This document shows positions 1,207-31,909 of a stretch of DNA of 34,510 nucleotides, piece by piece; within the stretch, counting starts at the first letter, position 1; each line of letters begins with the position of its first letter. Source of the stretch: a virus. The notes beneath the pieces were generated by a model. That model worked only from the letters and a program-made list of their open reading frames with translations. It did not search any database and had not been told where the DNA came from. The translations under genes were made by a program, and so were the position numbers. Location of the stretch: the IMG/VR virus record IMGVR_UViG_3300032132_000026, positions 1 to 34,510 of that record. One strand, given 5' to 3'.

Positions 1207-1890
1207 CTAAGCCAAGCCAGAATGCGAGCCAACACCGTGCCTTTTGAGCGCAGACCTGAGTTTGCCACCCAATACACCCGTCCCGCCTCCACCGACCAAG
1301 ATCCACGGAGACCATTTAAGCACCCAGTCCGTAGCGTTCTCCTTGAGTTTGCTAATGGCCTTCTCGGTCTCCTCTTGGGCAATGGGTCTGGCAACTTTTG
1401 CAATCTTGCGCTCTGCCTCACGACGCACCGTCCTCTCTACCGTTGAACATCCAGACACAAACAACATAACCATCAAGCAAGCCAACGAACCAATACGTAC
1501 TGCCGTGAACATTGCGCGGGTCTTGATCTGGCCTACGCCCAGGTGCTCAAGCATCTCGTAGAATACGGTGTCGGCTTCATGTCGGTAGTGCTTTCTCAGC
1601 TTTCTCGTTTGCATCTGGGCGGCACTCCCGCACAGGGCATCATGGATCGGGGCAGACTTGCGACCCTTGCCCGTATAGGGCGACCCGCCAAGGTATGTCC
1701 ACCAGAGCAATCGGGGAACCGACTTGCCGTTGAACCTCTGCCCCTTGTTGATCGTGTAGTTCTTTCCGTTGACAGAATAGAACGTCAGGTCAGACAGCAT
1801 CACCATGTCCCTGCTAGAATCGTCGCACCATCTGGTGTCTACGGGGCCAGAGAAGTAGGGTCGGCTCTTGGGGATTGGATCAGCCACCAC
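1207..1890 (-). CDS. DUF1353-like protein with C-terminal lipobox and membrane segment, 227 aa
   Basis: Residues 1-135 resemble the phage DUF1353 family: a small beta region, then G-K-S-V-P-R-L-L-W-W (55-64), and the conserved IHDALC (82-87), followed by a helix with ADTVFYEML. In many phages such proteins sit near lysis genes. What follows is unusual: a hydrophobic run ending in the lipobox-like FVSGC (Cys148), a charged helix (150-185), then a second hydrophobic stretch (WILVGGGGTGVLGG, 196-209). A lipobox followed by a C-terminal membrane segment is the plan of a unimolecular spanin. ATG at 1512 (M127) could start a separate lipoprotein, but no Shine-Dalgarno is seen there. The start is GTG, overlapping the previous gene by 11 bases. 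DUF1353 is fairly sure; the spanin reading is inference. Confidence 0.7.
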   Translation of the reverse strand: MVADPIPKSRPYFSGPVDTRWCDDSSRDMVMLSDLTFYSVNGKNYTINKGQRFNGKSVPRLLWWTYLGGSPYTGKGRKSAPIHDALCGSAAQMQTRKLRKHYRHEADTVFYEMLEHLGVGQIKTRAMFTAVRIGSLACLMVMLFVSGCSTVERTVRREAERKIAKVARPIAQEETEKAISKLKENATDWVLKWSPWILVGGGGTGVLGGKLRSALKRHGVGSHSGLA

Positions 1891-2110
1891 TCAGACCAGA
1901 AATTAACGACATCGCAACCGCCCCCGCCGCTCCAGCCACCGCACCAAACAAGGCCGCAGCACCCTTAACCTTGGCGTGGGTTTCCTCTAGCTGCCCGAGT
2001 CTCCTCTCCAGTTTCTCAACGGCCTGACTTGTCCTGCGGAGTTCGCTCAGAACGAGGAGCCTGAACTCGTCCCATGTCCCGTGATGATCGTCGTACTCTG
2101 GCGGCGTCAT
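1880..2110 (-). CDS. Holin-like small membrane protein, 76 aa
   Basis: The ATG at 2110 follows the upstream stop by one base, with GAGG just before it; the longer frame overlapping the upstream gene is rejected. The protein has an acidic N-terminus, an amphipathic coiled-coil-like helix (LRRTSQAVEKLERRLGQLEETHAK, about 27-50) and one C-terminal transmembrane segment rich in Ala and Gly (52-75). This plan resembles small phage holin-associated proteins of the XhlA type. It lies just before the DUF1353/spanin-like gene, supporting a lysis or membrane role. The holin call rests on topology and context only. Confidence 0.6.
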   Translation of the reverse strand: MTPPEYDDHHGTWDEFRLLVLSELRRTSQAVEKLERRLGQLEETHAKVKGAAALFGAVAGAAGAVAMSLISGLSGG

Positions 2111-2111
2111 C

Positions 2112-2738
2112 TTAATCCTCGTCGTCGTGGGCTGAGTTGTGGATTGAGCAATGCGTCTCCCCGTTCGGCCCACCCGTGGTGAAGGTAACGGTTGTGTCTG
2201 AGTGTGGAGATGTGACCGCCCCGCAATGGCTGTCTGTCGCAACGAACTGCTGCTGAAGCGCACTGCCCGAGCGTGACCCATCTGGTAGTTCCTGCGGCGT
2301 CAGACCGACTTGGTTCTGATTCTTCTTGCTAGAACCCGAGTCGCTTGTCAGGGCGTCGTATGCAAAGTATCCACCAACAGCCGTGGCCGCGACGGTTACC
2401 CACTCTCCCCATGTGTACTTTTTGGGGTTCTGGAATATCGAGTACACATCAGCCAGTATCGACGTAGTATGTCCACCCCCGCTAGACGACCCCCTGACCT
2501 CGACGGGCGGCGTGTTGTTGGCCATCAGCATCTCTCCTGGTTCAATATCGTAGACATCATTGCGGATCAACCGCGACGGCTCGACCGATGCAAGGGTCAT
2601 TGCTTCATCGCTTAATGGCCCGTGCGCTATAACATCTTGTGCCATTGTCCGCACGGTCACACCAACGCAAATCGTGGCCGCAAGAATTAGTGCGAGCCAG
2701 TGGCGGTTGCGATCCTCTATGGTATGTGAGTACGTCAT
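2112..2738 (-). CDS. Membrane protein with two hydrophobic segments, 208 aa
   Basis: The ATG at 2738 has a near-perfect AGGAGGT site; the frame is open further upstream but overlaps the small lipoprotein gene. An N-terminal membrane segment (about 14-32, WLALILAATICVGVTV) may be a signal anchor. A second hydrophobic stretch (about 115-132, WVTVAATAVGGYFAYDAL) is flanked by Ser/Gly-rich sequence. The C-terminal ~60 residues are hydrophilic, with two Cys and several His. No family recognised. Its place between a small lipoprotein and a holin-like gene suggests an envelope or lysis function; a minor virion membrane protein is the alternative. Confidence 0.6.
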   Translation of the reverse strand: MTYSHTIEDRNRHWLALILAATICVGVTVRTMAQDVIAHGPLSDEAMTLASVEPSRLIRNDVYDIEPGEMLMANNTPPVEVRGSSSGGGHTTSILADVYSIFQNPKKYTWGEWVTVAATAVGGYFAYDALTSDSGSSKKNQNQVGLTPQELPDGSRSGSALQQQFVATDSHCGAVTSPHSDTTVTFTTGGPNGETHCSIHNSAHDDED

Positions 2739-2739
2739 A

Positions 2740-2856
2740 TCATCTACCTCCTGTTTGGTCTGCCTCAGTCCATGCCGGCGGCGTGATCTCTGCATCGTGC
2801 GTCGAGCAGCCAACTGCGGCCAGCGCGAGAAATATCAGTATCAGCAACCGCTTCAT
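2740..2856 (-). CDS. Small lipoprotein, 38 aa
   Basis: Read directly: MKRLLILIFLALAAVGCSTH... ending TGGR. The first 16 residues form a lipoprotein signal with the lipobox A-A-V-G-C; the mature peptide would be about 22 residues. The ATG overlaps the upstream stop as ATGA, so translation is probably coupled. The stop lies one base before the next ATG, and the Shine-Dalgarno of the next gene lies inside this frame. Such tiny lipoproteins can be outer-membrane spanin subunits (Rz1 type), but no inner-membrane partner with a long periplasmic coil is obvious. The lipoprotein call is good; the role is open. Confidence 0.65.
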   Translation of the reverse strand: MKRLLILIFLALAAVGCSTHDAEITPPAWTEADQTGGR

Positions 2857-3251
2857 GGCAGGTCTTCCACCTCTGGCGGCTCAAGGCCCAGCCCGTGCAA
2901 TGATCCAATCGGACTGTCCGTCAATATCATATGCAGGTCACTGTCTGCCATTGCGGTGTCCCACTCTGAAACCGTGTTCTCATCCACGGCGTCATCCCCG
3001 TCAATCAACGCCTCGATGAATACCTCCATCGCTGCCTCATTCGCTGCGTACTTTGATGCTGGCAATGCGATGATGCAATGCGTATTCGTTGCGGATGATG
3101 TGTCTGCAAACTGCTCCATCCAGTAGCACGACACGCTCCAGTCGTTGGTCGTGGCAGTCTCGATCCAGCGGGTATCGCCCAGCACCTTGATGCCGTGGAT
3201 GCCGAAGCAGGTTGTCGTCATTATCAGTAGCGTTGCCAGTATCGTTTTCAT
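2853..3251 (-). CDS. Secreted hypothetical protein, 132 aa
   Basis: The ATG at 3251 is preceded by AGGAGACAC and lies eight bases after the stop of the LamG gene. It encodes a clear Sec signal peptide (MKTILATLLIMTTTCFG) and then an acidic mature protein with two or three cysteines (SVSCYWMEQF, NTHCIIAL). The C-terminus is Pro/Glu-rich. The frame is open further upstream but overlaps the preceding gene. No domain recognised. It belongs to the chain of signal-bearing genes at this end of the operon, coupled by ATGA to the small lipoprotein. Confidence 0.65.
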   Translation of the reverse strand: MKTILATLLIMTTTCFGIHGIKVLGDTRWIETATTNDWSVSCYWMEQFADTSSATNTHCIIALPASKYAANEAAMEVFIEALIDGDDAVDENTVSEWDTAMADSDLHMILTDSPIGSLHGLGLEPPEVEDLP

Positions 3252-3258
3252 GTGTCTC

Positions 3259-5472
3259 CTATAACCCGTAGGTTGCTTTAGTGTTGTTGTAGATTGCCAG
3301 CACCTCTGCTGCGGTGATGCCCCTATCATAAATCCTCACATCGTCCAAAAACCCATCAATGAATGAGGTTCCTGCAACCACATTAGCACCTAGCCCCAAG
3401 GTTTCTGTGTCTGTATCTACAGCCGTAGCTGGGGTGGCGTCTGTATCAGCCTGAACAGCATTGATATATACAAACGCATCCGAACCATCATTAACAGCCG
3501 CAACAAACGTCCACTGGTTTGTAGGCACAGGCACAGTTCCTGCAATAGCAGTAACAAATGCGCCACCCTCGCTTTGATAGAAGTTCAAATCGCCATCGGG
3601 GTTAAAGCTAAACTGAAACGGAATAGGATGTGCCGCCCCTGTTCCTTTAATCAGGATCATCTGCCACCCATGCGCGTCCAGTTTTAACCATGCAGTAATA
3701 GTCATAAGGTTGCCAATAGCATTCAGCGACGTACTTGCCGCAATACTAATGGAATCATCAACCCCGTCGAAGCTATACACGCCTCCGTTGTCGCTTGAAA
3801 ACGTCGGCTGATCTGACGCCGTCGCTTGCGATCCGTCATTGCCTATTGGCCCCTTGTCTATATAGTCAGGCGTTTCGTCTGTGTCGAACGGAAGCCATAA
3901 AGCCAAATCCATGTAGTCATCAAAGTCGTAGTCGTCGGTGCTAAAATACGGGTAGTAAGTTGATCCTGTTCTATTGCCGATTGCGAGAATCTCTGCTGCT
4001 GACAAGGCGCGGTCATAGATGCGGGTGTCGTCAAGCTGTCCGTCGAAATAATTGTCTGAATATTTCTCCCTAAACCCGACACCCAGCGGGGCGGTGCTTG
4101 CATATATGGAACCCTGCGCCGTCCCCAATACCGTCCCTGCTGACTCTGAACCGTTAACGTAAATCTTAAAGTCTCGCGTTGATGCCGTGAGCGTGACTGC
4201 AACGTAGTGCCATAATCCAATTGCTATAGACGATGCATCTTCACGGTAATAGTCGTAATTAGTAGGCGCACTTGAGCCAGTGGCAGAAATCCACAATGTT
4301 ATCAGGTCTGTTGCGCCTATCTCAAACCAGAAGTCTATGTCATCACCCTTGCTGAATATGTAATCCCTCGTCCCTGCGCTTGATCGGTTGAGCCAGCACG
4401 ACAATGTAAGCGTATCGGTGATTCTAAGCGATGCGTCGTCTGCCACTACGAAACTATCGTCAACCCCGTCGAAGCTATAGACGCCTCCGTTGTCGCTACT
4501 GAACGTGGGCTGTTCTGACGCCGTCGCCTGAGTGCCGTCATTTCCAATCGGCCCTTTGTCGATGTAGTCAGGTGTCTCGTCGCTATCAAAGGGTAGCCAT
4601 AACGCTAAGTCCACATAGTCGGCCAGATCATAGTCATTCGTCGAAAAGTAAGGGTAGTATGTAGCAGCACCCGCAAGTGCTATGGCGAGCACCTCTGCCG
4701 CTGTGATGCTGCGATCATAGATGCGGATGTCATCCAGCAGACCGTCATAAAAGTTGTCGTAGGGCGTATTGAATTTCCCCATAAATAAATTGTATGTGGC
4801 GCTTGATACTTCCGTTGAATCTGCTGTCTCGGAATCATCTTCTGCTCCGTCTACATACAGCTTTGCCATATCTGCGTCCGTTGTGCCGTCCCATGCCGCA
4901 ACGACATGATGCCAGTTGCCATCGCTCAAGTCGCCCGTTCCCGTCACGACAAATCGCGAGTCCCCAGCAGACCCTTTAGTGCTGAGAAACTTTATCAACC
5001 CCGCCGAAGTGAGATATATTGATGTCCCGTTATTCGCGGTTTTAGATGCGCTGTTGTCGAAGATGGAAACCGTGCTGGACGTTGTAGAGTCAAACCAGAA
5101 TGCAATCGTTTTTGCTCCCAGCGGTATTACTTGAGCGGCATAGATGAAATAATCATCCACCCCGTCAAGGTCATAGTGTCCCCCGTCCGTGGTCTGATGG
5201 CTGGGCTGCTGAGACGCCGTGGTCTGCGCTCCGTCATTTCCGCTTGTACTCAGGTCGTAGAAGTTAGCATCCGAATTGTCTGAGTAGCTGAACATCTGCC
5301 ACAGTACCAGGTCATCATGCAGCGACTTAGGCATCACGGACAGCACGCCAGCAGTGTTGGCATCAACCCGATGCCCTGTGCCGACATTGGTCTTTGTCTT
5401 ACCTACCACGTTCTGCGCCTCCGCGAGTCCCGCCGCAGCGCACAGGGCGACCATGACGAGCAATAGCTTCAC
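3259..5472 (-). CDS. Secreted triple LamG-like (concanavalin A-like) protein, 737 aa
   Basis: A GTG start overlaps the previous stop (GTGA) and has GGAG before it. Residues 1-19 form a Sec signal peptide (MKLLLVMVALCAAAGLAEA). Three tandem domains of about 200-220 residues follow (roughly 50-265, 290-500, 515-735). Each contains FDGVDD-type and GNDG motifs early and L-D-D-x-R-I-Y-D-R followed by AAEVLAI at its end, the hallmark of LamG/concanavalin A-like jelly rolls that bind sugars or surfaces. Domains 2 and 3 share near-identical linkers (YYPYFSTxDYD). In a phage it would be a host-binding spike or decoration, but a signal peptide is odd for a virion protein; it may instead coat the host cell. 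The fold call is strong, the role is inferred. Confidence 0.8.
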   Translation of the reverse strand: MKLLLVMVALCAAAGLAEAQNVVGKTKTNVGTGHRVDANTAGVLSVMPKSLHDDLVLWQMFSYSDNSDANFYDLSTSGNDGAQTTASQQPSHQTTDGGHYDLDGVDDYFIYAAQVIPLGAKTIAFWFDSTTSSTVSIFDNSASKTANNGTSIYLTSAGLIKFLSTKGSAGDSRFVVTGTGDLSDGNWHHVVAAWDGTTDADMAKLYVDGAEDDSETADSTEVSSATYNLFMGKFNTPYDNFYDGLLDDIRIYDRSITAAEVLAIALAGAATYYPYFSTNDYDLADYVDLALWLPFDSDETPDYIDKGPIGNDGTQATASEQPTFSSDNGGVYSFDGVDDSFVVADDASLRITDTLTLSCWLNRSSAGTRDYIFSKGDDIDFWFEIGATDLITLWISATGSSAPTNYDYYREDASSIAIGLWHYVAVTLTASTRDFKIYVNGSESAGTVLGTAQGSIYASTAPLGVGFREKYSDNYFDGQLDDTRIYDRALSAAEILAIGNRTGSTYYPYFSTDDYDFDDYMDLALWLPFDTDETPDYIDKGPIGNDGSQATASDQPTFSSDNGGVYSFDGVDDSISIAASTSLNAIGNLMTITAWLKLDAHGWQMILIKGTGAAHPIPFQFSFNPDGDLNFYQSEGGAFVTAIAGTVPVPTNQWTFVAAVNDGSDAFVYINAVQADTDATPATAVDTDTETLGLGANVVAGTSFIDGFLDDVRIYDRGITAAEVLAIYNNTKATYGL

Positions 5473-7259
5473 AGCAACTCCAGATAGTTCGTAACTGAGT
5501 TATATATCCAGTAGAATCTGTTATCAGCAACCGAGGTACGGCACTTGTTCGCCGTGGCTGCAACGGGTGCGCCGTTTGTTGAGTACTCAGCGGAGAGCAA
5601 TCCTGTAATGTCATCATCGCCCATCGCAATGTCGCCCGTCATCGTCCCGCCAGCCAGTGGCAGGTAACTCGACGCAGTGATGCTATCAGCAACTTCATTG
5701 TCAGCCCACGGGTTCGCCGTGTTGACCCAGTTTCCTGCAATGGTTTCAGCAGAACCCAGCGCACCATAGGCTGAGTGGTCGTCGTCACCAAGTCCACCGA
5801 TGCTTCCGTGGTCGGCAAATAGCCAGTTCGTCTGGCTTCCCGCAATGCTTATCACCACAGCGTCACCGTGCGCGGGTGCATCATCTGTACCTGCCCATGT
5901 GATTCCAGAGTTGTTCGTCAGCGCACCATTGCCGCCACCACCACCACCTGCGCTTGCAGACCACACCGCAGTCGTGACGCTTGCGGTTACGTCAACCGTC
6001 AGTACTTGCCCATCGGCTGGTGCAAGGTCGTTCAGCAGCAGCGTGGATTGGTTCATGTTCGTGAATGCGGGATACAGGTCATTGGACAACTCGCTGTCCC
6101 GCGCAATGGTAGCTGCGATTCTGGCGTCCGCAACCGTACCCGCAGATATGCTCGACCCGTTAAGCGCAGTCAAGCCTACTCCGCTGCCGTAGTACGCAAC
6201 GATGTTGGTCAAGATGCGATTATCCACATCGAAAATTATGGTTGTATCGGCGGTCGGATCATACAGCCCTTGGACAACGATCTGATTGGCACGAAGAGTA
6301 TCTATGTTGGTCACGGCATTTGCACCCATGTCCAGATTGCCAGACATCCTACGCGCTCCCGTAGCCAGTACCGCCAGCGGATCGCTCTCTGCATATACTA
6401 CAGAACCCGATGCGGCGACCCATATCGGATCGCTCTCCGTGTAGCTGGTCAGATACCCGTTCGTCTGGCCCTCAAGCTGACCCATGCGCGTGTTCAGGTT
6501 CGTCGCCGTTAGAGTCACCCCACCCGACAAGCCACCACCCTCTAGCCCCGTCCCAGCCGTGACGCCCGTTATGTCTCCGCTGCCTGTTGGTGCAGCCCAA
6601 GTCCCGTCCGCCTTGAGGAAGTTGCCAGCATCACCTGCTGCGCTCGTAACCGCACCCGTAGTTGACGCCCCAGAAAACATAGTGGTTATGTGACCAGACC
6701 ATACGGCCCCACTGATTGTGTACCCGCCGCCAGCCATGTTGCCCTCTAGCGTGTCGCCAGATACGGAGTAAAAATCTGCCGCAGACAAGCTGGCTGGAAA
6801 CGAGAACACCCCGTCACCGTCGTCATACAGGGACTCGCGTACCTGCCAAGTCCCACGCCCCGCAGTCCTCGCCGTGCCTGAGTCGGTCAGATACAACTCA
6901 CAATTATAGGCGTTATCGGGAGGTACGTTGGTGTACGCTATAGTAAACGTGACATTGGATGTACTCTTGGTAATCGCAGAATTGGCAACCGCCACGTAAA
7001 TTAGATTAGAGCCGCCCGATACCCGACGAGAAGCCTTGAACTGCCATGTGTAACTAGAGGCAGTCAATGCTCCAGAGTTGTTGGCCAGGTCAAACGAAAA
7101 CACGGCGTCCTCGTAGCCATGAGAGTTGAACTTGAAATCCCTGAAGTCGGTTTTTAGATTGTCGATGTTAATGCTCTTATACACCGTCCTCTGTGGTACG
7201 GCGGCAAAAGCGGACACCGCTAGGCTCAACGCCAGTAATATAGATGCTACTCGTTTCAT
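5469..7259 (-). CDS. Tail-fibre-like protein with signal peptide, 596 aa
   Basis: Residues 1-19 are a Sec signal peptide (MKRVASILLALSLAVSAFA). The N-terminal part (20-150) is a beta-rich domain reminiscent of baseplate upper-protein N-domains. The rest is typical fibre material: GNFLKADGTWAAP, GDITGVTAGTGL, SGNLDMGANAVTNIDTL, YLPLAGGTMTGDIAMG, with low-complexity Gly/Ser/Thr stretches, and a short aromatic C-terminus (RFYWIYNSVTNYLELL). Such sequences form trimeric fibres that end in a receptor-binding tip. The start overlaps the zinc-finger gene stop as ATGA. The combination of fibre repeats with a signal peptide is unusual. Fibre character is well supported; attachment to the virion is inferred. 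Confidence 0.7.
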   Translation of the reverse strand: MKRVASILLALSLAVSAFAAVPQRTVYKSINIDNLKTDFRDFKFNSHGYEDAVFSFDLANNSGALTASSYTWQFKASRRVSGGSNLIYVAVANSAITKSTSNVTFTIAYTNVPPDNAYNCELYLTDSGTARTAGRGTWQVRESLYDDGDGVFSFPASLSAADFYSVSGDTLEGNMAGGGYTISGAVWSGHITTMFSGASTTGAVTSAAGDAGNFLKADGTWAAPTGSGDITGVTAGTGLEGGGLSGGVTLTATNLNTRMGQLEGQTNGYLTSYTESDPIWVAASGSVVYAESDPLAVLATGARRMSGNLDMGANAVTNIDTLRANQIVVQGLYDPTADTTIIFDVDNRILTNIVAYYGSGVGLTALNGSSISAGTVADARIAATIARDSELSNDLYPAFTNMNQSTLLLNDLAPADGQVLTVDVTASVTTAVWSASAGGGGGGNGALTNNSGITWAGTDDAPAHGDAVVISIAGSQTNWLFADHGSIGGLGDDDHSAYGALGSAETIAGNWVNTANPWADNEVADSITASSYLPLAGGTMTGDIAMGDDDITGLLSAEYSTNGAPVAATANKCRTSVADNRFYWIYNSVTNYLELL

Positions 7260-7504
7260 TGTCCTGCCTTTTGCTTGTCTCTCCAGCGTTTTTGTTTAGC
7301 CCGTGTCCGTTCCGGGAATTGTGAACGATAATACTTCCCGTAGGACTTTATGACACCCCGGTTGGCCTCGCGCCAAAGATACTGCTTCTCGCCAAAGCAG
7401 TCCTTGCACTGTCGCCGGGGTTTGCCTGTGTCAGCCCGTATAGCGAACTCGGTCTCGTCCTTTTTCGCTTGACATTTACTGCACTTCTTCATGCAATCCG
7501 CCAT
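7256..7504 (-). CDS. Zinc-finger protein, 82 aa
   Basis: The product carries C8-x2-C11 and C33-x2-C36, separated by K-x-E-F-x-I-R-x-D-T-G-K-P, followed by a basic helical tail (EKQYLWREANRG...YYRSQFPERTRAKQKRWRDKQ). This is the common phage small zinc-binding type related to the N-terminal finger of HNH/endonuclease-VII-like proteins (C-x2-C...F...C-x2-C), but no HNH catalytic residues follow. The start at 7504 has GGAGAG eight bases before it. ATG at 7492 is an alternative. It sits inside the fibre region, coupled by ATGA to the fibre-like gene. It probably binds nucleic acid; the exact role is unknown. Confidence 0.65.
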   Translation of the reverse strand: MADCMKKCSKCQAKKDETEFAIRADTGKPRRQCKDCFGEKQYLWREANRGVIKSYGKYYRSQFPERTRAKQKRWRDKQKAGQ

Positions 7505-7548
7505 CCTCCGATCTCTCTCCCAAATTGTCAACATTTTACTGTTCATAT

Positions 7549-7746
7549 TCAGTTCCAGAAAGCACCCATCATTATAGTGACCGCCCTGCCGCAACCCAAC
7601 CCAGCCACCCCTATTTCTGTGACAAACGGATAATCCGACGGCGTTACCCGCATATATGCCGCACCCGATAAACCCATAGTTCCGTCCAATGATACACGAA
7701 CCATCAAGATCCTGCCGGGTGGGGTTTGGCTCTTATCTGCGACCAT
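7549..7746 (-). CDS. Small hypothetical protein, 65 aa
   Basis: The ATG at 7746 lies ten bases after the giant-gene stop and has AGGGA eight bases upstream; the longer frame inside the giant gene is rejected. The product (MVADKSQTPPGRILMVRVSL...) is beta-rich, with no signal and a C-terminus ending VTIMMGAFWN. Its G-A-A-Y-M-R-V-T segment may be part of a small barrel. No family recognised. Its place between the giant protein and the fibre genes suggests a minor structural or chaperone role. Confidence 0.5.
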   Translation of the reverse strand: MVADKSQTPPGRILMVRVSLDGTMGLSGAAYMRVTPSDYPFVTEIGVAGLGCGRAVTIMMGAFWN

Positions 7747-7756
7747 TTGTGGTTCC

Positions 7757-10700
7757 CTAAAAGTGCCTTTTGTTGGGGTCAATTTTTTTGAACCGCAATT
7801 TACTGCCGCCGCCTGTGCTTTTCTTGGGTTTGTTCTCAAACGACATGGCCCCCCACCCGACCACGGACGCTCCTCCGGCTCCGAGCAACCCCGTAGTTCC
7901 GTCAACCTTAGCCCCATCGTAAGCCTCCTGCCACGACAGCGGTATCACCAAGTTTAGGGAAGCCTCCCTCGCCATATCCAAGCTAAAGCGTTTAACGTAA
8001 TCCCCCATATAGGTTTCCGAGGTGTGGAAGGTGGCGAGGGTCTGGAGGGCCGGATTCAGCTTTGAGCGCAAAAACCGCGCCCAAACCTCAGACATATCGG
8101 TGTCTGCATAGCCGCCGCCAGCCAGCTTAACCACCCTCCCCGTCCCCGTTGTTTTCTCCAGCGTTACGACTCTTGCAGCCAGCACTAGCCACGGGCGCAG
8201 ACCCATAGTGAAATCTATATATACATTGCCCCACCGAGCCGTAAGAAACTTGGATGATCTTGGGTCATCTTCTACTTCAGCCCCCATTAGAACCGCAAGT
8301 GCGTAGATCGACGGGATTAAGGCGAATATCTTGGCGTCTTGCTTCAGTAGAAACAGTTGGGTTTCCCGCGATGCAGAATAAATACCCTTTCCTGGTGCTA
8401 CGGCCCGGACGCCGTGGACAAGCGGGTTTGCCATTGCTTGTAGTCTGCTAATGTTGAGTCGCGGAGAGAAGAAAATAGAAGTACCCGCTTGCATAAGTTG
8501 TTGCTGCTTGTGGTTGGTGATAGAGCCTCGACCAGAGAGCACGTTTATGTCGGCGGCAAGGGCTAACTTATCCCCGATAGGCAGTTCTCCGTGCTGGTCG
8601 GATAAGGCGTCCCGCCACTTCGTATAGACCTCCATTCTCAGGACGTTCAAGTAGAAAGAGAAAGCCCTGCCAGACCCCTTGGTTGCTGACGCTAAGTGTC
8701 CCCACACGCCCTTCCAGCCCTTATCTTTTGTGCTGGCCTCATTGATCCACCGGGACTGAAGTTCCTCCTCTGCCTTCAATAGAGACCCGTCGTTTATGTC
8801 CGAGATAAACAACCCAGCGTCGGCTGTCGCCTCGTCGTAATAGCGGCTCTCTTGTAACTCTATCATCTTTTTGTCGTAATAGGACTGCGATCGACCCGCC
8901 CTAATCATCCCTGGTATGATTTTGAGCGCGGTGACGGGGTTGGTCAGGAATAGCATCCCCCCTTGTCGGCCAACGGCAGAATAGTCCGACGACGTAACTG
9001 TAGCCCGACTGGTGTGTGATAGGGTGGCAAGTATGTCCCCCGTCCTTTCCAGCGCACCTTGCAGTGATCGTTGGTGCTTTGCGTGAGCCCTGGAATAGAC
9101 CCGCTTGGCGTCTTGTAGTTTTTTGCGAGCCTCAATGGTTTTTTCGTCTGGTTTGTATTCCGGGGTCTCCCGCTTTGAGAAGTCTCCCTCGGCCAACCTG
9201 CGTTCCATGTCTGCTATCTGTCGCGCTGCCCTTTTCTGGAATTGAACATTCCACGCTTCTTCTGGAGTCGGCTTGGGGTTGGCGAGTAGTTGGAGTTCCT
9301 TGAGTTCTGCCTTTAATGCGTCTCGCTCGGCTTTGGCCGCTTGCAGTTCCTTTGTGTTCGGGGTCTTGCTTTTCTTTTTCTCTGGAAATAGGTCTCTATT
9401 GTCGATCCGTCGCTGCAACTCCGCTGTTGACTTCTCTACGGCGGCAATGGCACGGGATACCCTTTGTTCGTCGGTTAACTCTTTCTTGCCAAATATAGCC
9501 GTGAATTGCTCCCGGAGTTCGTCTCTACGCGCCCGTAGTACCATCGCTTCTTCGTCTAACTGTACGTCCGACGGTTTTTTGACGATAGGGCCGTGTTCAA
9601 TCTGGTGCTCAAGCGACTTAATCTGGTTGTTTAGCCGTGTCTTTACGGCGGCGAGTGCAGACTTGAGGTTATTTGCTGCGTTTGTCCCGAGGAACCCTCC
9701 CTTGCGCTTCAGTTCGTTTACCTTTGCGATCAGACGCAGTTCTTCTGACTCCTTTTCTCGTTGCTCTAACCCTGTTAACTTGGCTTGCCTTCCGGGAATG
9801 GCCGCGCCCGTGTCCGATGTTTTTGACTGCATATCTTGTAGCTTTGCCACGTTCTGCAACTCGCCCCTGATGCGCCCCAACTCACGGTTGATTTCCTTCT
9901 TAGATCGCTGCCGGAATCTGCCGTACCCCGATATGGCGTCCATTGTGTCCCGTCGAGTGATCTCAGGCACAACCTCGCGCAACATCTCATGCACCCTGTC
10001 TACCACGGCGTCACGATCCTTTACGCCCTCCCCTATGACGGATTTGGCGAGGGCTTGTGCCGCGCCGTGAATGTCGTCAACAGCACCCTCGTCAACCTTG
10101 TCCGACACCCGCTGTAACGCCGCGTCCCTGACTTCTGCTACGGTTTTGCCCGTGATCGCGCCCTTGACGGATGCTCTGTTGCGCTTTGCCAGCCTACCCC
10201 CGCCCTGATCTATCATGGCGTCTATGGCGTTATCCAAGCCGTCCCTAACAACCTTATACAACTCGTCAAGATGCGGCTTTACCGTGTCCCCCAGTAGCCT
10301 GATCATTTCAGCCGACCACAGAGCAAAGTCCCGGCCAGTTGTGGCGGCGGCGGCTACTGCTATGTCCGTGTAATCGGCCACGTCGGACAAGTCGATGCCC
10401 GCATGGAACCTATACCCCTTTTTCTTCAATCGCTCTATAGCTGCGTCTCTACGCTTGTTCAGACGCCCTATGATTCTTTCTGCGACAGCCTGTACCTCTG
10501 GGCTTATCGCCGGGGCGTCGGCGTCTGGGCCAGCCAATTTCCTATGCACCCGCTTTGATTGTTTAGTGGCGGCTCGCTCGTCTGCGGTGTCTATGGCCTC
10601 AACCTCTTTTTGGGCTAGGGCTTGAATCTCCGCGTGTTGAGTGCGAACCTCCTCTAATTCGGCGTTCCTCTGTTCGGGCGTCATTTCGCCCTGTTCTACC

Positions 10701-13700: not shown

Positions 13701-14608
13701 TCTAACTCAAAGGCCTTGTTGCCAGCCGCGCTCATGCCCATCATGCCCCCGGCTTGGCCCTTGGTGGCTAACATTGCCGCCAACTGGGGAACGAACTCCA
13801 GGAACCCGAAAACCGCCATTTTCGCAGCCTCGTCGTAATCCTTTTTCTGCACCGCATCTACCAAACCGCCGTACCCGCCCCTGTCCACGGGGATTTTCTT
13901 GGCGAGCCTTCTCAACTTGCGAGCCGACCACTTGGCGGGGTCTCCCACCAAATCCTCTAGTAGGGTTTTCGGTGGGCCGTCTTTTCCCCACGCTGCCTCC
14001 ACGTCTTGCTCGTATTTCTGCCTATCTGCGTCGGAAAAGAAAATAGGCCGCTGCTGGCTACCAAACTGCTCCAGCGTCTCCGCAATTCCTGCGAGAACGC
14101 CAGAGGACAGGTTGAGCAATCCGACCCCCAAAGCCTTTGGAGCCTCAGTCAATAGCGACCCGGACGGCGTGGTAGATGTCTGTACGGGTGTGGGTTGCCC
14201 TGCATCCCGCTCATACGGCTCACTGGGTCTGTCTATTCCAGGTGGGCTATATTCGGGTAGGTCTCCGAATTGTGTTGGCCCAACAGGGGCATCGAGTTGA
14301 CCCCCGACACCAGCATCGGAAGCAACAGGAGCGGGTGTGAGCGAGGAGGAGTTGCCGCTGTCCCGTGATGTTTCCGCACCAGCATCAGGGGTCAACCCGA
14401 TGCTCTTGTTAAACTCTTGTAACTGGGGCGATGGGCCGTCTGCGGTCTCTTGCTGCGAGTACCTCTCAAACGGGTCAATAGAGCCTTCGGCTAATCTCCT
14501 CTCCCTTGCCCTCTTGTATTTGGAGAAAGGGTCTGTCTGTCCCTGTTCGTCCGTTTCCGGCTCGGGTCGGCCCCGGCGTCTCAGGTACAACTCAAACGGG
14601 TCTGACAT
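7757..14608 (-). CDS. Giant polyvalent-type protein with ART-like segments, probable internal virion protein, 2283 aa
   Basis: This is the largest gene, about 20% of the window. Three DPFxxY repeats open it (residues 3-8, 26-31, 45-50). A hydrophobic segment follows near 160-180, then a helical region (270-420). Three segments resemble ADP-ribosyltransferase-type folds: about 530-600 (VGYRVSR...GDGVFVTRDLEYAKTHYG), 643-700 (TVYHGGG...GLLFTSADREQAEAYA) and 858-1010 (LFHVTT...GVSLTRS...GIVEV). Between and after them run acidic Pro-rich linkers with three copies of DAPPVIDPL[AT]GE. A long coiled-coil region (1180-1900) precedes a conserved helical C-terminal part (about 1900-2283) ending in a basic tail. 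The design matches phage polyvalent proteins, thought to be injected with DNA to act on the host. Catalysis is not proven. Confidence 0.75.
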   Translation of the reverse strand: MSDPFELYLRRRGRPEPETDEQGQTDPFSKYKRARERRLAEGSIDPFERYSQQETADGPSPQLQEFNKSIGLTPDAGAETSRDSGNSSSLTPAPVASDAGVGGQLDAPVGPTQFGDLPEYSPPGIDRPSEPYERDAGQPTPVQTSTTPSGSLLTEAPKALGVGLLNLSSGVLAGIAETLEQFGSQQRPIFFSDADRQKYEQDVEAAWGKDGPPKTLLEDLVGDPAKWSARKLRRLAKKIPVDRGGYGGLVDAVQKKDYDEAAKMAVFGFLEFVPQLAAMLATKGQAGGMMGMSAAGNKAFELDENHPDMEPTKRAANILSTALMERIAEQLGTGKLVKKLFGNSEFKRSGMEKIKDVLTSAGTESTEEGVTQAWENLTDMATGVKDWSFDGVWDGVGEAAAMGGVIGKGMGTISALTQGQQTPDAQPEGAIPDTPQARPTLDDVLSGRTPEQLARDKAGLEALGAPPTEGAGPETVGEPGSAARLVEAEEGPTVSFDSSPDAVQMGGSVARVGNWEELPRAADNWEQLPDGRLVGYRVSRSDGGRAVSGADSRQSSSMEPGAQVEFKGDGVFVTRDLEYAKTHYGVHDANAVQRVAFSREEITSGRLADAEPEISVRSGEVVGSDVFADPDLAPAAQPDAQTETVYHGGGMRSPARQRGLLFTSADREQAEAYATARREERSSPSMFAALPIQSIQIDPKTIASESTAKQTMSDLNISPADAEWSLDESSLYELLDPAFEQYIGDENVDTFRASMVEQGFTGVRFIDQDIRPTGTGRQTAENIALFQEAQPDAPPVIDPLAGEPAQPDAQPDARTDAPRVFLTREEVSDFKPAFGESRLQVTETGEILNGKVVTKDDLPPVLFHVTTKSGAVVSSGVLQDVAQGEQAGLGKGTSITHRGVSLTRSRDSAIHMQRELTRNVEAARTQEPIESFFKRIAREDEVLSGAKRGDLDGAVRQAVKQANFHGTVFDGMVTYRGARESATGVEDPIIFGSRDTWAAVDPQDIGIVEVRARDIPDAALIRNDPVGLAQETIVSSDVPISPRKPDAQPDAPPVIDPLTGEQAQAESETPMLDALEAQVSQSESGVESETPMLDSMPDAPPVIDPLAGEQAQAEPEQEPRVDPEGKAYSIKNEATDARREEMGLPPVYKEAQHGFGERVWGEAMETAEADPTAPERVVSRIQSEAQKRDAPTNLKSLVGGSESVAVSAKEQALLLHHNVTLETEYESVFREREAARETGDAEAESNAEARLRGLELRMNDAHRAYHLAGTAASHSMHLRKLWVQSDFSITTMTSRRSQITAELVEQGEMTPEQRNAELEEVRTQHAEIQALAQKEVEAIDTADERAATKQSKRVHRKLAGPDADAPAISPEVQAVAERIIGRLNKRRDAAIERLKKKGYRFHAGIDLSDVADYTDIAVAAAATTGRDFALWSAEMIRLLGDTVKPHLDELYKVVRDGLDNAIDAMIDQGGGRLAKRNRASVKGAITGKTVAEVRDAALQRVSDKVDEGAVDDIHGAAQALAKSVIGEGVKDRDAVVDRVHEMLREVVPEITRRDTMDAISGYGRFRQRSKKEINRELGRIRGELQNVAKLQDMQSKTSDTGAAIPGRQAKLTGLEQREKESEELRLIAKVNELKRKGGFLGTNAANNLKSALAAVKTRLNNQIKSLEHQIEHGPIVKKPSDVQLDEEAMVLRARRDELREQFTAIFGKKELTDEQRVSRAIAAVEKSTAELQRRIDNRDLFPEKKKSKTPNTKELQAAKAERDALKAELKELQLLANPKPTPEEAWNVQFQKRAARQIADMERRLAEGDFSKRETPEYKPDEKTIEARKKLQDAKRVYSRAHAKHQRSLQGALERTGDILATLSHTSRATVTSSDYSAVGRQGGMLFLTNPVTALKIIPGMIRAGRSQSYYDKKMIELQESRYYDEATADAGLFISDINDGSLLKAEEELQSRWINEASTKDKGWKGVWGHLASATKGSGRAFSFYLNVLRMEVYTKWRDALSDQHGELPIGDKLALAADINVLSGRGSITNHKQQQLMQAGTSIFFSPRLNISRLQAMANPLVHGVRAVAPGKGIYSASRETQLFLLKQDAKIFALIPSIYALAVLMGAEVEDDPRSSKFLTARWGNVYIDFTMGLRPWLVLAARVVTLEKTTGTGRVVKLAGGGYADTDMSEVWARFLRSKLNPALQTLATFHTSETYMGDYVKRFSLDMAREASLNLVIPLSWQEAYDGAKVDGTTGLLGAGGASVVGWGAMSFENKPKKSTGGGSKLRFKKIDPNKRHF

Positions 14609-14613
14609 TAGAA

Positions 14614-15822: not shown

Positions 15823-15832
15823 GATATACCCC

Positions 15833-16279
15833 TTACTCTGCGACGACGGTACTGCCGTCAATGCTCTTGACCGTCTGGATTCCGTGGTTGATCGTAACCG
15901 TTGCTGCCGCCCCGCCCTGTATGGTCTCGTTAGGAATCATCTTGGTAGTTCGGTTCGTGCTGGCTAAAGCCTCGTAATCGTCAACAACGTGCGAGTTAAA
16001 CGAGTACACAATCTGCTTCCAACTGGCTGTATTTCCAGTGTTTGTGCTAATCTCAGCCTGTGTTTCCGTCAGGTTCGGGAAATTAGTGACAACAAAGCAC
16101 ATATACGCCACACCAGCGCGAATGCCGCCGACCAGGTTAGTCGAGTTGGCTGAGTCAATCAGCGCGTAATCCGTGAAGTGCGCTCCGGGACTGTCGTTCC
16201 ACTGTGCATTCGCAGTTGTGAGAATACCCATATATACCCCCAATGCCGCGCCTAATACCGTCATTCCTGCCTTACTCAT
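15833..16279 (-). CDS. Secreted hypothetical protein, 148 aa
   Basis: The start at 16279 has AGGAGACAGGC directly upstream. The first 25 residues (MSKAGMTVLGAALGVYMGILTTANA) look like a Sec signal peptide with an A-x-A cleavage site. The mature part is beta-rich, with ISTNTGNTASWKQIVYSF in the middle and a C-terminal VTINHGIQTVKSIDGSTVV strand pattern, like a small jelly-roll or fibre-head domain. It is placed among tail genes, between two paralogous adhesin-like genes and an internal-protein gene. A secreted product here is unexpected. Role unknown; possibly a virion spike or a surface decoration. Confidence 0.6.
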   Translation of the reverse strand: MSKAGMTVLGAALGVYMGILTTANAQWNDSPGAHFTDYALIDSANSTNLVGGIRAGVAYMCFVVTNFPNLTETQAEISTNTGNTASWKQIVYSFNSHVVDDYEALASTNRTTKMIPNETIQGGAAATVTINHGIQTVKSIDGSTVVAE

Positions 16280-16340
16280 GCCTGTCTCCTTTTGTTGCTT
16301 GTTACATCTACTATCATTATTGAGAATGATCAAGTTATTA

Positions 16341-17246
16341 TTAAATCTCATTATACTCTTGTGCCAAAGTTACCAGCTTTGCGCTAAACTGCATCAGGCG
16401 CAGAGTCACGGAACCACCAACACCCCCGGTGGTATACATATCATAATCCACCGTTAGGGCGACATCAGCCGCCGATGCATCAATATATATCATCTTGGAG
16501 GATGTGCTGCTGTTTTCATAATCGGTTCCGGTAGACGATGCGGCGTTTGTTCCGATAAGAAAACTCCACTCAAAAGCCAAAACCCCGTCTTGCTTGACTC
16601 CAGCCTTTGTCTGTCCCGCAGACGCACCCGAGGATGCGGAGGTGATTTCTCCTTCACACGTAATAGACACCTTGTAAACCCCGGAGCAATACTGCTTAAT
16701 GATTATCTTGTCGTTGGCCAAGTCTACATCGGAAACATCGGTGTTTATCTCAACATTAACCGCATTCAGGTCGAATGTTCCGGCGTGGCCCGTGGTTGCA
16801 GTGGTTTCCTCAGCCCCCGTGGACGCCCCGACTATACCCTTCCCGATGTCGTAGCCTCGCTCCGCAACGCTGGCCCCCGTCGTGTCTAGTGACTGTAAGA
16901 TTACCCGTCCGGCGTCAGCATCCTCTAGTGCCTGAATACGAGCCTCAAGCAGCAATAGGTCTAACTCCCGCTTAACCGGGGGCGGCGGTATTGGATCATC
17001 CACCTCCGGGGCCATAAACGCCTCGGCATCCTCTCGCAACTTGCGATCCTCGTCGCTCTCTGCGCCCCGCTCTCGTATCCCACGAACCGTCCGTCGCATA
17101 CTCTCGTCGTCTTCCGCGACCTCCTCTGGAGGCGGGGGGACAACCCGGATAACCTCGTCCCGGCGGTCAAGAGCCTGATCGTGCTCAAACCTCCCGTCGT
17201 CGATCCTTTGCTGAAACTCTAGTCTGGCTTGTTGAAATTTATCCAT
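16341..17246 (-). CDS. Adhesin-like structural protein, paralogue B, 301 aa
   Basis: The start at 17246 (MDKFQQARLEFQQRIDDG) follows the upstream stop by one base; the longer frame is rejected. It is a paralogue of the upstream 348-residue protein: both share FQQARL-FQ-RIDD, DHDQALDRRDE, ESDEDRKLREDAEAFMAP, a poly-Pro linker, DTTGASxAERGYxIGKG and the C-terminal half. The C-terminal ~150 residues (AGTFDLN... to the end) follow a C1q/TNF-like jelly-roll pattern, with YSGVYKV-type and KMIYIDASAADV strands. The N-terminal part is an acidic coiled coil. The pair probably forms a hetero- or homotrimeric tail appendage. Structural role inferred from context and shape. Confidence 0.65.
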   Translation of the reverse strand: MDKFQQARLEFQQRIDDGRFEHDQALDRRDEVIRVVPPPPEEVAEDDESMRRTVRGIRERGAESDEDRKLREDAEAFMAPEVDDPIPPPPVKRELDLLLLEARIQALEDADAGRVILQSLDTTGASVAERGYDIGKGIVGASTGAEETTATTGHAGTFDLNAVNVEINTDVSDVDLANDKIIIKQYCSGVYKVSITCEGEITSASSGASAGQTKAGVKQDGVLAFEWSFLIGTNAASSTGTDYENSSTSSKMIYIDASAADVALTVDYDMYTTGGVGGSVTLRLMQFSAKLVTLAQEYNEI

Positions 17247-17247
17247 G

Positions 17248-18294
17248 CTAAATCTCCGTGGCAGACTGCGCCAGATGTAACAACTCAACGCTTAGTTGCT
17301 TCAGCCTTATTACTTGGGGGCCACCCGCAACCGTAGCCACCGACCAGTCGGCAGTAAAATCAACATCTGCCGCAGACGCATCCACATATATCATTTTAGA
17401 CGCACCGCTACTGTGTTTGTGATACGTTGCACTCGTCGCCGCAGAGTTTGACCCGATCATAAAACTCCACTCAAAAGCCGACACCCCATCCTTCTTTACC
17501 GCCACCTTTGCCTGTCCCGACCCTGCGCCGGACGATGGCAGGTTTATCTCTGCCTCACACAGCATAGACACGTTATACACCCCGGAGTAATACCGCTTGA
17601 CGATGATCCTATCGTTGGCGAGGTCTACGTCTATAATGTCCTCGTTCATCTCAGCGTCAAGCACGTCAAGATCAAAGGTTCCGGTGGCGTTATAACCACC
17701 CATCGAGGCACTATAGTTTGCCGCGCCAACCGTCCCCTTGCCGATGTTGTAGCCTCGCTCCGCAATGCTGGCCCCTGTCGTGTCCAAGTCCTCTAGGGTA
17801 ACATTCTTCTCCTCTAAGTCCTCTAGTGCATTGATCCGTCCCTCCATAGAGGCTAGTTCTGAGTCTAGTTCTGGTGGCGGGGGCGGGATTGGGGCTTCAA
17901 CCTCGGCTGGCTTCCCCGGAGCCATAAATGCCTCAGCATCCTCGCGTAGCTTGCGGTCTTCATCGCTCTCGGCGTTCCGGTCTCGTATCCCCTGGAGTGT
18001 TCTCTCCATGCTATCGGCGTCATCCTCAACCTGCTCCAGATTCGGGGGGATAACATTAACAATCTCGTCCCGTCGATCAAGGGCTTGGTCGTGATCAAAC
18101 TGCCTGTCGTCAATTCTGGCTTGGAAGTCCAGTCTGGCTTGCTGAAACTTGTCCGCAACCTCCGGTTCGGCGGCGTGTTCGCCTCCACCACGGACGATTT
18201 GTCCGCGCCCGACGTTCGGGATGTCAGCCCGAATCTCGTCGTTAATTTCGTCCAGACCCCGATGATCACCGCCAAATATGACTTCTTCTTCCAT
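17248..18294 (-). CDS. Adhesin-like structural protein, paralogue A, 348 aa
   Basis: The ATG at 18294 is preceded by AAGGGG. It has an extra ~45 residues at the N-terminus (MEEEVIFGGDHRGLDEIND...) compared with its tandem paralogue, then the same plan: FQQARLDFQARIDD, charged helix, IPPPPPELD linker, a short coiled coil (ELASMEGRINALEDLEEK), DTTGASIAERGYNIGKG, and a C-terminal jelly-roll-like domain with YYSGVYNVSM and KMIYVDASAADV. The extra N-terminus may dock onto the preceding 965-residue repeat protein or the tail. The duplication looks old: the two proteins are clearly related, but their DNA is well diverged. Confidence 0.65.
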   Translation of the reverse strand: MEEEVIFGGDHRGLDEINDEIRADIPNVGRGQIVRGGGEHAAEPEVADKFQQARLDFQARIDDRQFDHDQALDRRDEIVNVIPPNLEQVEDDADSMERTLQGIRDRNAESDEDRKLREDAEAFMAPGKPAEVEAPIPPPPPELDSELASMEGRINALEDLEEKNVTLEDLDTTGASIAERGYNIGKGTVGAANYSASMGGYNATGTFDLDVLDAEMNEDIIDVDLANDRIIVKRYYSGVYNVSMLCEAEINLPSSGAGSGQAKVAVKKDGVSAFEWSFMIGSNSAATSATYHKHSSGASKMIYVDASAADVDFTADWSVATVAGGPQVIRLKQLSVELLHLAQSATEI

Positions 18295-18316
18295 TGTTAA
18301 ACCCCTTTAACTCCGA

Positions 18317-22293: not shown

Positions 22294-22297
22294 AAGC

Positions 22298-22705
22298 CTA
22301 GCCCAACCCGCCTAAGCCCACAAAGTTGCTTGTGTCGTTCGTATCGTCCTCTTGGGCCTGATTCTGTATGTCAGTAGCAATCTGATCCACCAACCTCGGT
22401 ATGCGGCGTCTCAGGATCTCATACGTCTCCTCTTGTCCACGCGAGGGTCGCTGCCCGTCGTCTATCAACGTAACGGACACCATAGCATCCAGTACGTGCA
22501 GGTACTCATCGCTCAGTGCAACCTCGTCCTCCGGGCTATTGATCTTGGAGATTCGGTCTTCCAGATCACAGCGAGTGTTTATCTCGGATGTGCTTTGATT
22601 TACCGCGTCAACGAAAGACTGGGTAAAGTTTTCGGCTCCCTGTCCCTGCGTTCGGAAGACGCGCTTCATCTTGGTGTGAAGTGCGGTCAGGTCGATGTTG
22701 GCCAT
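22298..22705 (-). CDS. Putative head-tail adaptor, 135 aa
   Basis: A small, acidic, almost entirely helical protein (MANIDLTALHTKMKRVFRTQG...) with a disordered Gly-rich tail (FVGLGGLG). It contains DEYLHVLDAMVSVTLIDDGQRPS and ILRRRIPRLVDQIATDI helices. Size, helical content and position between the capsid group and the tail-hub gene fit a head completion or adaptor protein that binds the portal ring. No sequence match to a named family can be claimed. Confidence 0.5.
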   Translation of the reverse strand: MANIDLTALHTKMKRVFRTQGQGAENFTQSFVDAVNQSTSEINTRCDLEDRISKINSPEDEVALSDEYLHVLDAMVSVTLIDDGQRPSRGQEETYEILRRRIPRLVDQIATDIQNQAQEDDTNDTSNFVGLGGLG

Positions 22706-22720
22706 GACAGACCCCCTTGC

Positions 22721-23164
22721 TTAGTCGATCAAGATGTACGTAGTCACATCCAAGGTGTCAACGTCCTGCGTCGAAACGCCAGAGATAGTCACCGTGATGT
22801 TGTCCTGCAACAGCGGCAGTCGAGCATCCTCGTTAGCCGTGATAGCCGTAGCATCTGTCTTGGTAGGGATAAGCCTAATCGGGTAGTAAGCGTCAGCCGT
22901 CAAGCCAGCCTTGCTCAGAATCGTTCGACTTGGCATTCCACCAGTACCGCCAGCGGTCACGATAGATACCGTCCCGGTAAAGCTGGCAGAACCAGTCCAA
23001 TCCAAGTAAACGCCCTCAACAAATCCGCTCAGGAATGCGGCGTGGTCGTTGGTCTGCACCTCTGAACCACTACCTACGTCCGTATGCACGGTCTTAATCA
23101 TGCCAGCCATGCACAGTGCGGCAGTCAAGAACGTACTCAAAAAACCTATGATTCCCTTTTTCAT
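22721..23164 (-). CDS. Secreted beta-rich protein next to the capsid genes, 147 aa
   Basis: ATG 23164 is chosen because GGAG lies eight bases before it; ATG 23176 would give four more residues. The first ~20 residues (MKKGIIGFLSTFLTAALCMAG) form a Sec signal or lipoprotein-like leader containing one Cys. The mature part is rich in Thr, Ser, Val and Gly and strand-prone (VYLDWTGSASFTGTVSIVTAG, DNITVTISGVSTQDVDTLDVTTYILID), like a small jelly roll. Its position between capsid and adaptor genes would suggest a decoration or spike protein, yet the leader predicts export. A possible attenuator hairpin precedes it. Confidence 0.6.
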   Translation of the reverse strand: MKKGIIGFLSTFLTAALCMAGMIKTVHTDVGSGSEVQTNDHAAFLSGFVEGVYLDWTGSASFTGTVSIVTAGGTGGMPSRTILSKAGLTADAYYPIRLIPTKTDATAITANEDARLPLLQDNITVTISGVSTQDVDTLDVTTYILID

Positions 23165-23191
23165 CTTAAACTCCATGTAAAGAAAAGGATC

Positions 23192-23212
23192 GGGGGTGGT
23201 ATTAGCACCCCT
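23192..23212 (-). terminator. Possible attenuator hairpin
   Basis: GGGGTG (193-198) and CACCCC (206-211 of the 23 kb block) form a six-pair stem with a seven-base loop, in the gap between the 120- and 147-residue genes. On the minus strand it is followed by CGATCCTTTTCTTT, a broken U-tract. It may be a weak terminator or a processing site. Confidence 0.35.
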
Positions 23213-23242
23213 GTCACCAGCAACTTCATTTTCGTCTTGGTC

Positions 23243-23605
23243 TTAGAACCGCTTCAGTGCGCCCGAGTCAACCCAGACATCGCCAACGGTCAAGCCGTTA
23301 GTGGTAGTGGGGAGGCTCGCGGCATTCAGCCGCAGACTCGAAATGGTGGTTACGTCATTGGTGGCGTCACCGAGCGTCACGTTTCCGTTAAGCGTAGTAA
23401 CATCCGCAACCGTCAAGTCGTCTTCTGCGGTCAGGTCGTCAGCGGTGTAAAACCCCTGAAGCGTGGATGAATTGCCACCGTACTTAACAGTGCCATACGC
23501 ATCCTCGTCTAGCTTTTCAACACTAATGCTTTCCGCAAAGACATACGCCGCGCAAGCAATAACCAGAACCGCAATCCATCCAACTATTTTTCTTGTGTCA
23601 ATCAT
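23243..23605 (-). CDS. Signal-anchored mini fibre protein, 120 aa
   Basis: The ATG at 23605 has AGGAGACTGAG before it. A membrane or signal segment (VGWIAVLVIACAAYVFA, about 8-24) leads into YTADDLTAEDDLTVADVTTLNGNVTLGDATNDVTTISSLRL and the terminal LPTTTNGLTVGDVWVDSGALKRF. The latter two are classic phage tail-fibre beta-solenoid and fibre-cap motifs (N-G-N-V-T-L-G-D; L-P-x-x-x-x-G-L-x-x-G-x-x-W). The gene is the first after the capsid terminator. A fibre cap carrying an export signal, this close to the capsid gene, is odd. Fibre similarity is visible; function unknown. Confidence 0.65.
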   Translation of the reverse strand: MIDTRKIVGWIAVLVIACAAYVFAESISVEKLDEDAYGTVKYGGNSSTLQGFYTADDLTAEDDLTVADVTTLNGNVTLGDATNDVTTISSLRLNAASLPTTTNGLTVGDVWVDSGALKRF

Positions 23606-31553: not shown

Positions 31554-31909
31554 CAGCCATCCCCCCACTCGTCAGGGTCAAATATCCACAAACGATACAA
31601 CCCATTGTTCAACTTGCGCTGACGTACCTTCAAACCCGCCGCCCTCACAGCACGATCAAAGGCGTTACGCTGACTGCGGGTATAAACCACAATCGAATCA
31701 CCACTGTCCATAGACGCCACCTTAGCCGTCCAGTAACCATTCACCATCCTAGGGAAAGGTATTGGCTGCTCAACCGGGGTTGACGCCGGAAACGGGTCGG
31801 CAGCACCCCCAACCATCCCGTCCGGCTCACCCTCAGACCTAGACACCCAACCATAGATGTCGGCCTCGTACTCCTTACCATCCCGCGATCCTGTGTCCAA
31901 ATCCCCCAC
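31550..31909 (-). CDS. Hypothetical protein, 119 aa
   Basis: GTG 31909 is the first start after the upstream stop (four bases away); the frame is open further but overlaps the previous gene. The N-terminal half is acidic and Pro-rich (FPASTPVEQPIPFPRM). The C-terminal ~60 residues (GYWTAKVASMDSGDSIVVYTRSQRNAFDRAVRAAGLKVRQRKLNNGLYRLWIFDP) form a compact beta-alpha unit with a basic helix, like a small DNA- or RNA-binding domain. Its stop overlaps the terminase start, so the two are coupled; a small packaging subunit is possible but unproven. Confidence 0.55.
   Translation of the reverse strand: MGDLDTGSRDGKEYEADIYGWVSRSEGEPDGMVGGAADPFPASTPVEQPIPFPRMVNGYWTAKVASMDSGDSIVVYTRSQRNAFDRAVRAAGLKVRQRKLNNGLYRLWIFDPDEWGDGW

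Follow-up and report, generated by a model that had tools for sequence, protein, structure and literature searches.

By the usual teaching, tailed phages assemble in the cytoplasm and have their fibres added inside the cell, and term matching in open-access full text turned up no account of Sec leaders on the fibres of tailed phages. What, then, could genes with secretion leaders be doing in a phage structural operon? The question is raised by the DNA studied here (the window), the whole of a linear viral record of 34.5 kb (IMG/VR record IMGVR_UViG_3300032132_000026), which carries a single long minus-strand structural operon and in it seven genes whose products begin with predicted Sec- or lipoprotein-type leaders. 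We lean, with moderate confidence, towards the answer that peripheral virion proteins (fibres and decorations) may be exported, trimmed and docked on the particles outside the cytoplasm.

Leader genes of the structural operon

Leaders were called by a rule-based caller, which considers the charge of the n-region, a charge-free core of 11 residues, and a small-x-small cleavage site or a lipobox. This caller is crude: at its relaxed threshold 2-10% of shuffled N-termini pass, because such N-termini are hydrophobic from the outset. All seven open reading frames (ORFs) to which the first-pass annotation of this DNA had ascribed leaders are present at the starts claimed for them, and each begins with a Sec- or lipoprotein-type leader, in which an n-region of positive charge leads into a hydrophobic core that is followed by a signal-peptidase site or lipobox. 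They are listed here with predicted cuts marked by arrows, and are named below by their lower coordinate.

23243-23605, minus strand: small fibre-tip-like or decoration-like protein of 120 amino acids (aa) directly after the capsid gene (strict rule and position; no family match); leader 23534-23605, MIDTRKIVGWIAVLVIACAAYVFA↓ES, with a signal peptidase I site (VFA↓ES) or alternatively a lipobox (VIAC)
22721-23164, minus strand: second capsid-adjacent leader protein (strict rule; Shine-Dalgarno (SD) sequence GGAG); leader 23105-23164, MKKGIIGFLSTFLTAALCMA↓GM
15833-16279, minus strand: leader protein whose gene is flanked by a tandem pair of tail-type genes and by the internal-protein genes (relaxed threshold only); leader 16205-16279, MSKAGMTVLGAALGVYMGILTTANA↓QW, with a good site (ANA↓Q) and lower hydrophobicity
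5469-7259, minus strand: fibre-like protein of 596 aa with the fibre motifs MSGNLDMG and LPLAGGTMTGDI; leader 7203-7259, MKRVASILLALSLAVSAFA↓AV (AFA↓AV)
3259-5472, minus strand: triple LamG protein of 737 aa (PF13385, LamG_3, three copies, E 1.1e-73; PHROG 8510, virion structural protein, 9e-59); leader 5416-5472 with a GTG start, MKLLLVMVALCAAAGLAEA↓QN (AEA↓QN)
2853-3251, minus strand: secreted-type protein of 132 aa (strict rule); leader 3201-3251, MKTILATLLIMTTTCFG↓IH, site CFG↓IH
2740-2856, minus strand: lipoprotein of 38 aa with the lipobox AVGC, MKRLLILIFLALAAVG↓C

Under the strict setting, 6 of the 26 genes of the operon were positive, and 15833 joined them only at a lower hydrophobicity threshold. 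A comparison set of 80 viral loci, which had been fetched by tail-collar similarity with no selection for leaders, contained 742 ORFs that reach 100 aa; the same strict caller picked 15 of these (2.0%; binomial p about 1e-5). Several of these 15 were short proteins close to operon ends, many being small and neighbours of lysis genes, and four belong to two phages of the leader-fibre comparison described below. The view that leaders are rare among phage proteins was thus borne out, with about 2% of the surveyed viral ORFs carrying such an N-terminus. In the window, leaders are carried by the two small proteins encoded after the capsid gene, by the fibre-like 5469 and the triple-LamG 3259, and by 15833, 2853 and 2740; the terminase, portal, scaffold-type, capsid, tail and internal proteins are leaderless. 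The leaders sit on proteins expected at the periphery of the particle.

The assigned starts were examined together with their translation signals. SD-like sites AAAGGAGAC, AAAAGGAGAC and TAGGAGAC precede the starts at 23605, 16279 and 3251, respectively, GGAG stands before 23164 and 5472, and weaker SD sequences before 7259 and 2856. The genes starting at 7259, 5472 and 2856 overlap the preceding gene by 4 bases. Because most starts have a strong SD sequence and three are coupled through such overlaps, the leader-containing starts are likely to be the true ones. The leader genes sit in the structural operon and are translationally linked, with gaps to their neighbours of -4 to 78 bases.

Domain content was less informative for most of the set. 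PHROG and Pfam searches found no recognisable virion domain in 22721, 23243, 15833 or 2853, and a Pfam search found neither PF07484 nor PF18454 in the fibre-like 5469. Jelly-roll-like folds, proposed for several of the proteins from the letters of the sequence, are well founded for 3259, in which LamG_3 occurs three times (E 1e-73); the all-beta models obtained for 22721 and for the 5469 N-terminal domain were only of low confidence. The AlphaFold models of this domain and of mature 22721 had a predicted local distance difference test score (pLDDT) of 46-47, and fold searches with the 5469 domain model gave no match. A lipobox is present only in 2740 and perhaps in 23243. The lipoprotein 2740 may belong to the lysis or envelope group instead of the fibres, and is a candidate o-spanin or exclusion lipoprotein; gene 2112-2753, which overlaps it, encodes an N-terminal transmembrane-like segment and has no spanin family match.

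Leader-bearing fibres in other phages and prophages

In the collections searched, no close relative was found with the portal, capsid, terminase, LamG or 22721 proteins of the window, and isolate phages showed no similarity to the two leader genes tested, 22721 and 5469. Since the window is without a close relative, the leader idea was examined in other phages. Gene 5469 has short stretches in common with ORFs of other viral contigs, and the sole lead obtained from the window leader proteins was a fibre-gene segment of 59 bp, 97% identical between window positions 6014-6072 and the last 59 bp (10006-10064) of contig L004; it may reflect either an assembly artefact or a fibre segment that was exchanged recently. 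The L004 phage is T7-like, with a connector (PF12236) on the contig, and unrelated to the window. Behind its T7-type fibre gene it encodes three proteins with leaders, beginning with a collar fibre (PF07484) whose leader is MKKLLYLLLLIATPVFG.

Unrelated phages and prophages of T7-like, Mu-like and P22-like kinds, and of Desulfobacterota hosts, also carry leader-bearing proteins of fibre or virion type. A survey with the collar domain as bait found a fibre with a leader in 3 of the 80 viral loci (L025, L078 and L093; the leader of L093 was missed by the strict rule and recognised by eye). The contigs of L025 and L093 carry portal/head genes, and the L078 fibre lies directly after Mu-type tail/baseplate genes. 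Geomonas sp. Red32 has near-identical leader fibres, at 61% to that of L078, one of which directly follows baseplate genes (PHROG 6 and 203). The second near-identical gene (locus L108, 7950-11212) is followed by a second leader protein, of 657 aa; tail genes are absent upstream of it, and a transposase-like gene lies downstream.

In a Desulfobacterota prophage (L254, genome G584), the gene for a leader fibre with Mtd_N and Collar domains has that of a 4,951-aa internal protein on one side and lysis-type genes on the other, and it is the sole obvious fibre gene in its slot. This order of giant internal protein, leader fibre and lysis-type genes is the same as in the window, and in L093, too, an internal-type protein lies upstream of the fibre block, as in the window. 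Another Desulfobacterota genome (G1110, locus L285) likewise has a leader fibre. Inspection for a dual start, with an internal Met right after the leader, gave none in 5469, L004, L078 or L093.

Sixty-odd Proteobacteria collar loci in the bacterial-genome scan, counted by eye, had no leader. Collar proteins with leaders in Bacteroidetes (L176, L177, L187), Bacteriovoracaceae (L149) and a Geobacter metagenome-assembled genome (MAG; L111) look cellular and were not counted. At L149 (637-12006 of a Bacteriovoracaceae MAG), three tandem giant collar-type leader proteins stand beside housekeeping genes and are probably cellular surface proteins. In Desulfuromonadia, PF07484 matches were mostly short proteins of the microcystin-dependent type.

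Cleavage sites and leaderless starts

On the view that leaders are add-on export modules, homologues lacking one would be expected to start where the leader-bearing proteins are cut. In six families, five of tail fibres and one of a virion cluster, the initiator Met of the leaderless protein lies within one residue of the predicted cleavage site. When L093 is compared with ten leaderless fibres, Met followed by AVVTPTAKAQF aligns to mature residue 1. The AMA↓GKTVF of Geomonas and L078 corresponds to M-GKTVF in an Elusimicrobia MAG, where the SD sequence AGGAGATAAACATATG stands at the leaderless start. The third and fourth families pair G584 with L062 (Mtd_N) and L025 with L034 and L036. In the fifth, A↓AGQFP or AGYFT of the L107 family is matched by M-SGMFT of L282, and in the sixth TATA↓TIQWANN of L285 by MMA-LKFSNN of L030 (49% identity). 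Families one to four and six are tail fibres by domain; the fifth is a virion-cluster protein without a named domain. Some of the cleavage sites, in L093 and G584, were set by eye before the comparison, and we regard the coincidence of predicted boundaries as strong but not blind evidence.

Selection on the leader could be followed in the L107 family, which is present on 26 viral contigs; its hosts were looked for and none were found. The pattern MKK...AxA/AxG is kept in 14 of 14 aligned leader-bearing members, in which the ratio of nonsynonymous to synonymous polymorphism (pN/pS) is 0.35 for the leader and 0.39 for the mature part, as would be expected of a leader under purifying selection. 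Moreover, in L279, L280 and L281 dissimilar leaders stand ahead of the same mature start. Both observations fit a working leader and not a chance hydrophobic N-terminus. A conserved Cys pair in the mature protein was considered as support for periplasmic disulphides and dropped, for leaderless L278 shares the domain and both cysteines.

Neighbouring genes and other features of the window

The window is best explained as a podovirus-type phage. Its operon runs from the terminase and portal through scaffold-/decoration-type genes, the likely capsid gene, tail genes, internal-type proteins and the fibre block to an end-of-operon group:

29784-31568, minus strand: terminase large subunit (PHROG 5653), without leader
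27011-29296, minus strand: portal (PHROG 1216, E 1e-15), without leader
23669-24604, minus strand: likely major capsid protein (PHROG 371, major head protein, E 0.002, and position), without leader
7757-14608, minus strand: internal/ejection-type protein of 2,283 aa just upstream of the fibre block, without leader (no match in Pfam or PHROG)
1880-2281, minus strand: holin-like protein at the operon end (PHROG 1103, E 0.0014)
1207-1890, minus strand: DUF1353 protein at the operon end (PF07087, E 5e-14)

The N-terminus of the 2,283-aa protein contains three near-repeats (DPFELYLRRR, DPFSKYKRAR and DPFERYSQQ), and a second internal-type protein, of 415 aa, is encoded alongside it. An inserted HNH/endonuclease VII-like gene (7256-7594, minus strand; PHROG 2340, E 1e-6) separates the gene of the 2,283-aa protein from the fibre block. 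A tandem pair of similar proteins of 315 and 348 aa, without family match, is encoded at 16341-18294 (minus strand) by genes that overlap by 41 bases. Inside the DUF1353 gene a nested in-frame start is possible (1207-1512, minus strand; Met at 1512), giving a lipoprotein-type product beginning MFTAVRIGSLACLMVMLFVSGC with a hydrophobic segment near its C-terminus, which is unimolecular-spanin-like; its SD sequence is not clear. At about 30 kb the GC skew turns strongly negative, with values of -0.32 to -0.46 up to the end of the contig (30001-34000); a gene for single-stranded DNA-binding protein and early-type genes are found in this part. Counts of promoter- and terminator-like sequences in the window equalled the shuffled expectation.

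Discussion

The proposal that the window encodes an exported set of phage surface proteins is supported by its sequence: export of the leader proteins is well supported by their predicted signals, and we infer that they are in fact exported and cut, and that they dock outside the cytoplasm. The peripheral proteins (the capsid-adjacent decoration-like or head-fibre-like proteins, the tail fibre and the LamG protein) would be made as Sec precursors and would cross the inner membrane in late infection, when trimming by signal peptidase I would leave the normal N-terminal end of a fibre. Most simply, lysis by holin and endolysin would mix the two compartments and bring the trimmed proteins to the particles assembled in the cytoplasm, on which they would dock; should particles get into the periplasm, docking could come earlier. 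It is a classical result for T4 and P22 that fibres attach in vitro to particles lacking them, which makes docking after lysis chemically reasonable. Two observations favour export followed by docking: the fibre N-terminal region is retained in the mature proteins, and in L254 no other obvious fibre gene occupies the slot of the leader gene. Among the three uses that the first-pass annotation had suggested for these proteins, addition to virions is thus preferred, as true tail fibres carry leaders and their predicted mature N-terminus equals the leaderless one; coating of the infected cell and blocking of superinfection are possible.

Several points weigh against this explanation. The window and its own leaders are without close relatives in the collections searched, and the fibre families compared are not homologous to its fibres. 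Finding a leader on a collar-domain protein is not enough to make it a virion protein, because cellular-looking cases exist. Docking outside the cytoplasm would be unusual for tailed phages, and we infer it from the retained fibre N-terminus; support for the whole scheme comes from sequence. A broader proposal is put forward only tentatively: unrelated tailed phages may have gained Sec leaders on fibre or decoration genes independently, their particles being completed outside the cytoplasm and their receptor-binding proteins stored in the periplasm until lysis.

The exported proteins might instead act on the infected or lysogenic cell as non-virion proteins which, at the surface or released, occupy receptors, block superinfection or keep progeny from adsorbing to debris. 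Secreted phage lipoproteins serve superinfection exclusion in other systems, as do Ltp of TP-J34 (PMC3952083) and the T5 lipoprotein (PMC9586334); a lipoprotein, 2740, lies in the same block of the window, and the second Geomonas pair has no upstream tail genes. We consider this a serious alternative but an unlikely one, as leader-bearing fibres retain a virion-fibre N-terminal region, needless for a free blocker, and the L254 slot contains no obvious fibre gene besides the one with the leader. Moreover, the leader genes had no match to exclusion families in Pfam, and in PHROGs only 3259 had matches, which are non-exclusion. A dual role, in which exported fibres are virion parts that also mask receptors while waiting in the periplasm or medium, would follow from efficient export and late lysis, yet it seems to us rather improbable.

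It is very unlikely that the hydrophobic segments are uncleaved anchors, which would tie the proteins to the virion, or to the inner membrane while particles assemble, with no export. Some window leaders are indeed imperfect, 15833 being weak and 23243 ambiguous; against anchoring, the signal-peptidase motif is present and is kept throughout the aligned L107 members, the site coincides with the homologue start in six families, and one mature protein can have dissimilar leaders. It is likewise very unlikely that the genes are cargo (moron genes) for secreted surface proteins of host origin, as might be thought of the LamG protein, for although LamG and collar proteins with leaders are also found as cellular proteins, the leader genes are scattered through the structural operon with short gaps or overlaps, also between capsid and tail genes, and related phage fibres without leaders exist.

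If some phages do export their fibres before attaching them, this would change how the folding of fibres (with periplasmic chaperones and disulphides), the timing of particle completion, superinfection behaviour and the rules of phage engineering are understood, and signal peptides on fibre genes should not be dismissed as annotation errors. Direct experimental handles are offered by the homologues that pair a protein with a leader and one without; one such pair involves a named Geomonas genome.

Among known systems, the HMO-2011-like podoviruses resemble the window in a distant similarity of the terminase (tblastn, 25-33%) and differ in that 22721 and 5469 have no similarity in isolate phages. 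The coat proteins of filamentous (Ff) phages are likewise virion proteins with leaders, assembled beyond the cytoplasm; an inovirus, however, is extruded through the membrane and has no icosahedral particle, holin or tail. The T5 lipoprotein and Ltp share with the window proteins a phage origin and export (predicted for the window), in some cases with a lipobox, whereas they are small and stand-alone and those of the window are mostly large, of fibre or LamG type, and lie inside a structural operon. Finally, the leader proteins of the comparison phages are like fibres of the Phage Tail Collar (PF07484) and Mtd_N (PF18454) types in domain, gene position and N-terminal region; the known fibres start directly at this region, whereas in the leader-bearing ones it is preceded by a signal peptide.

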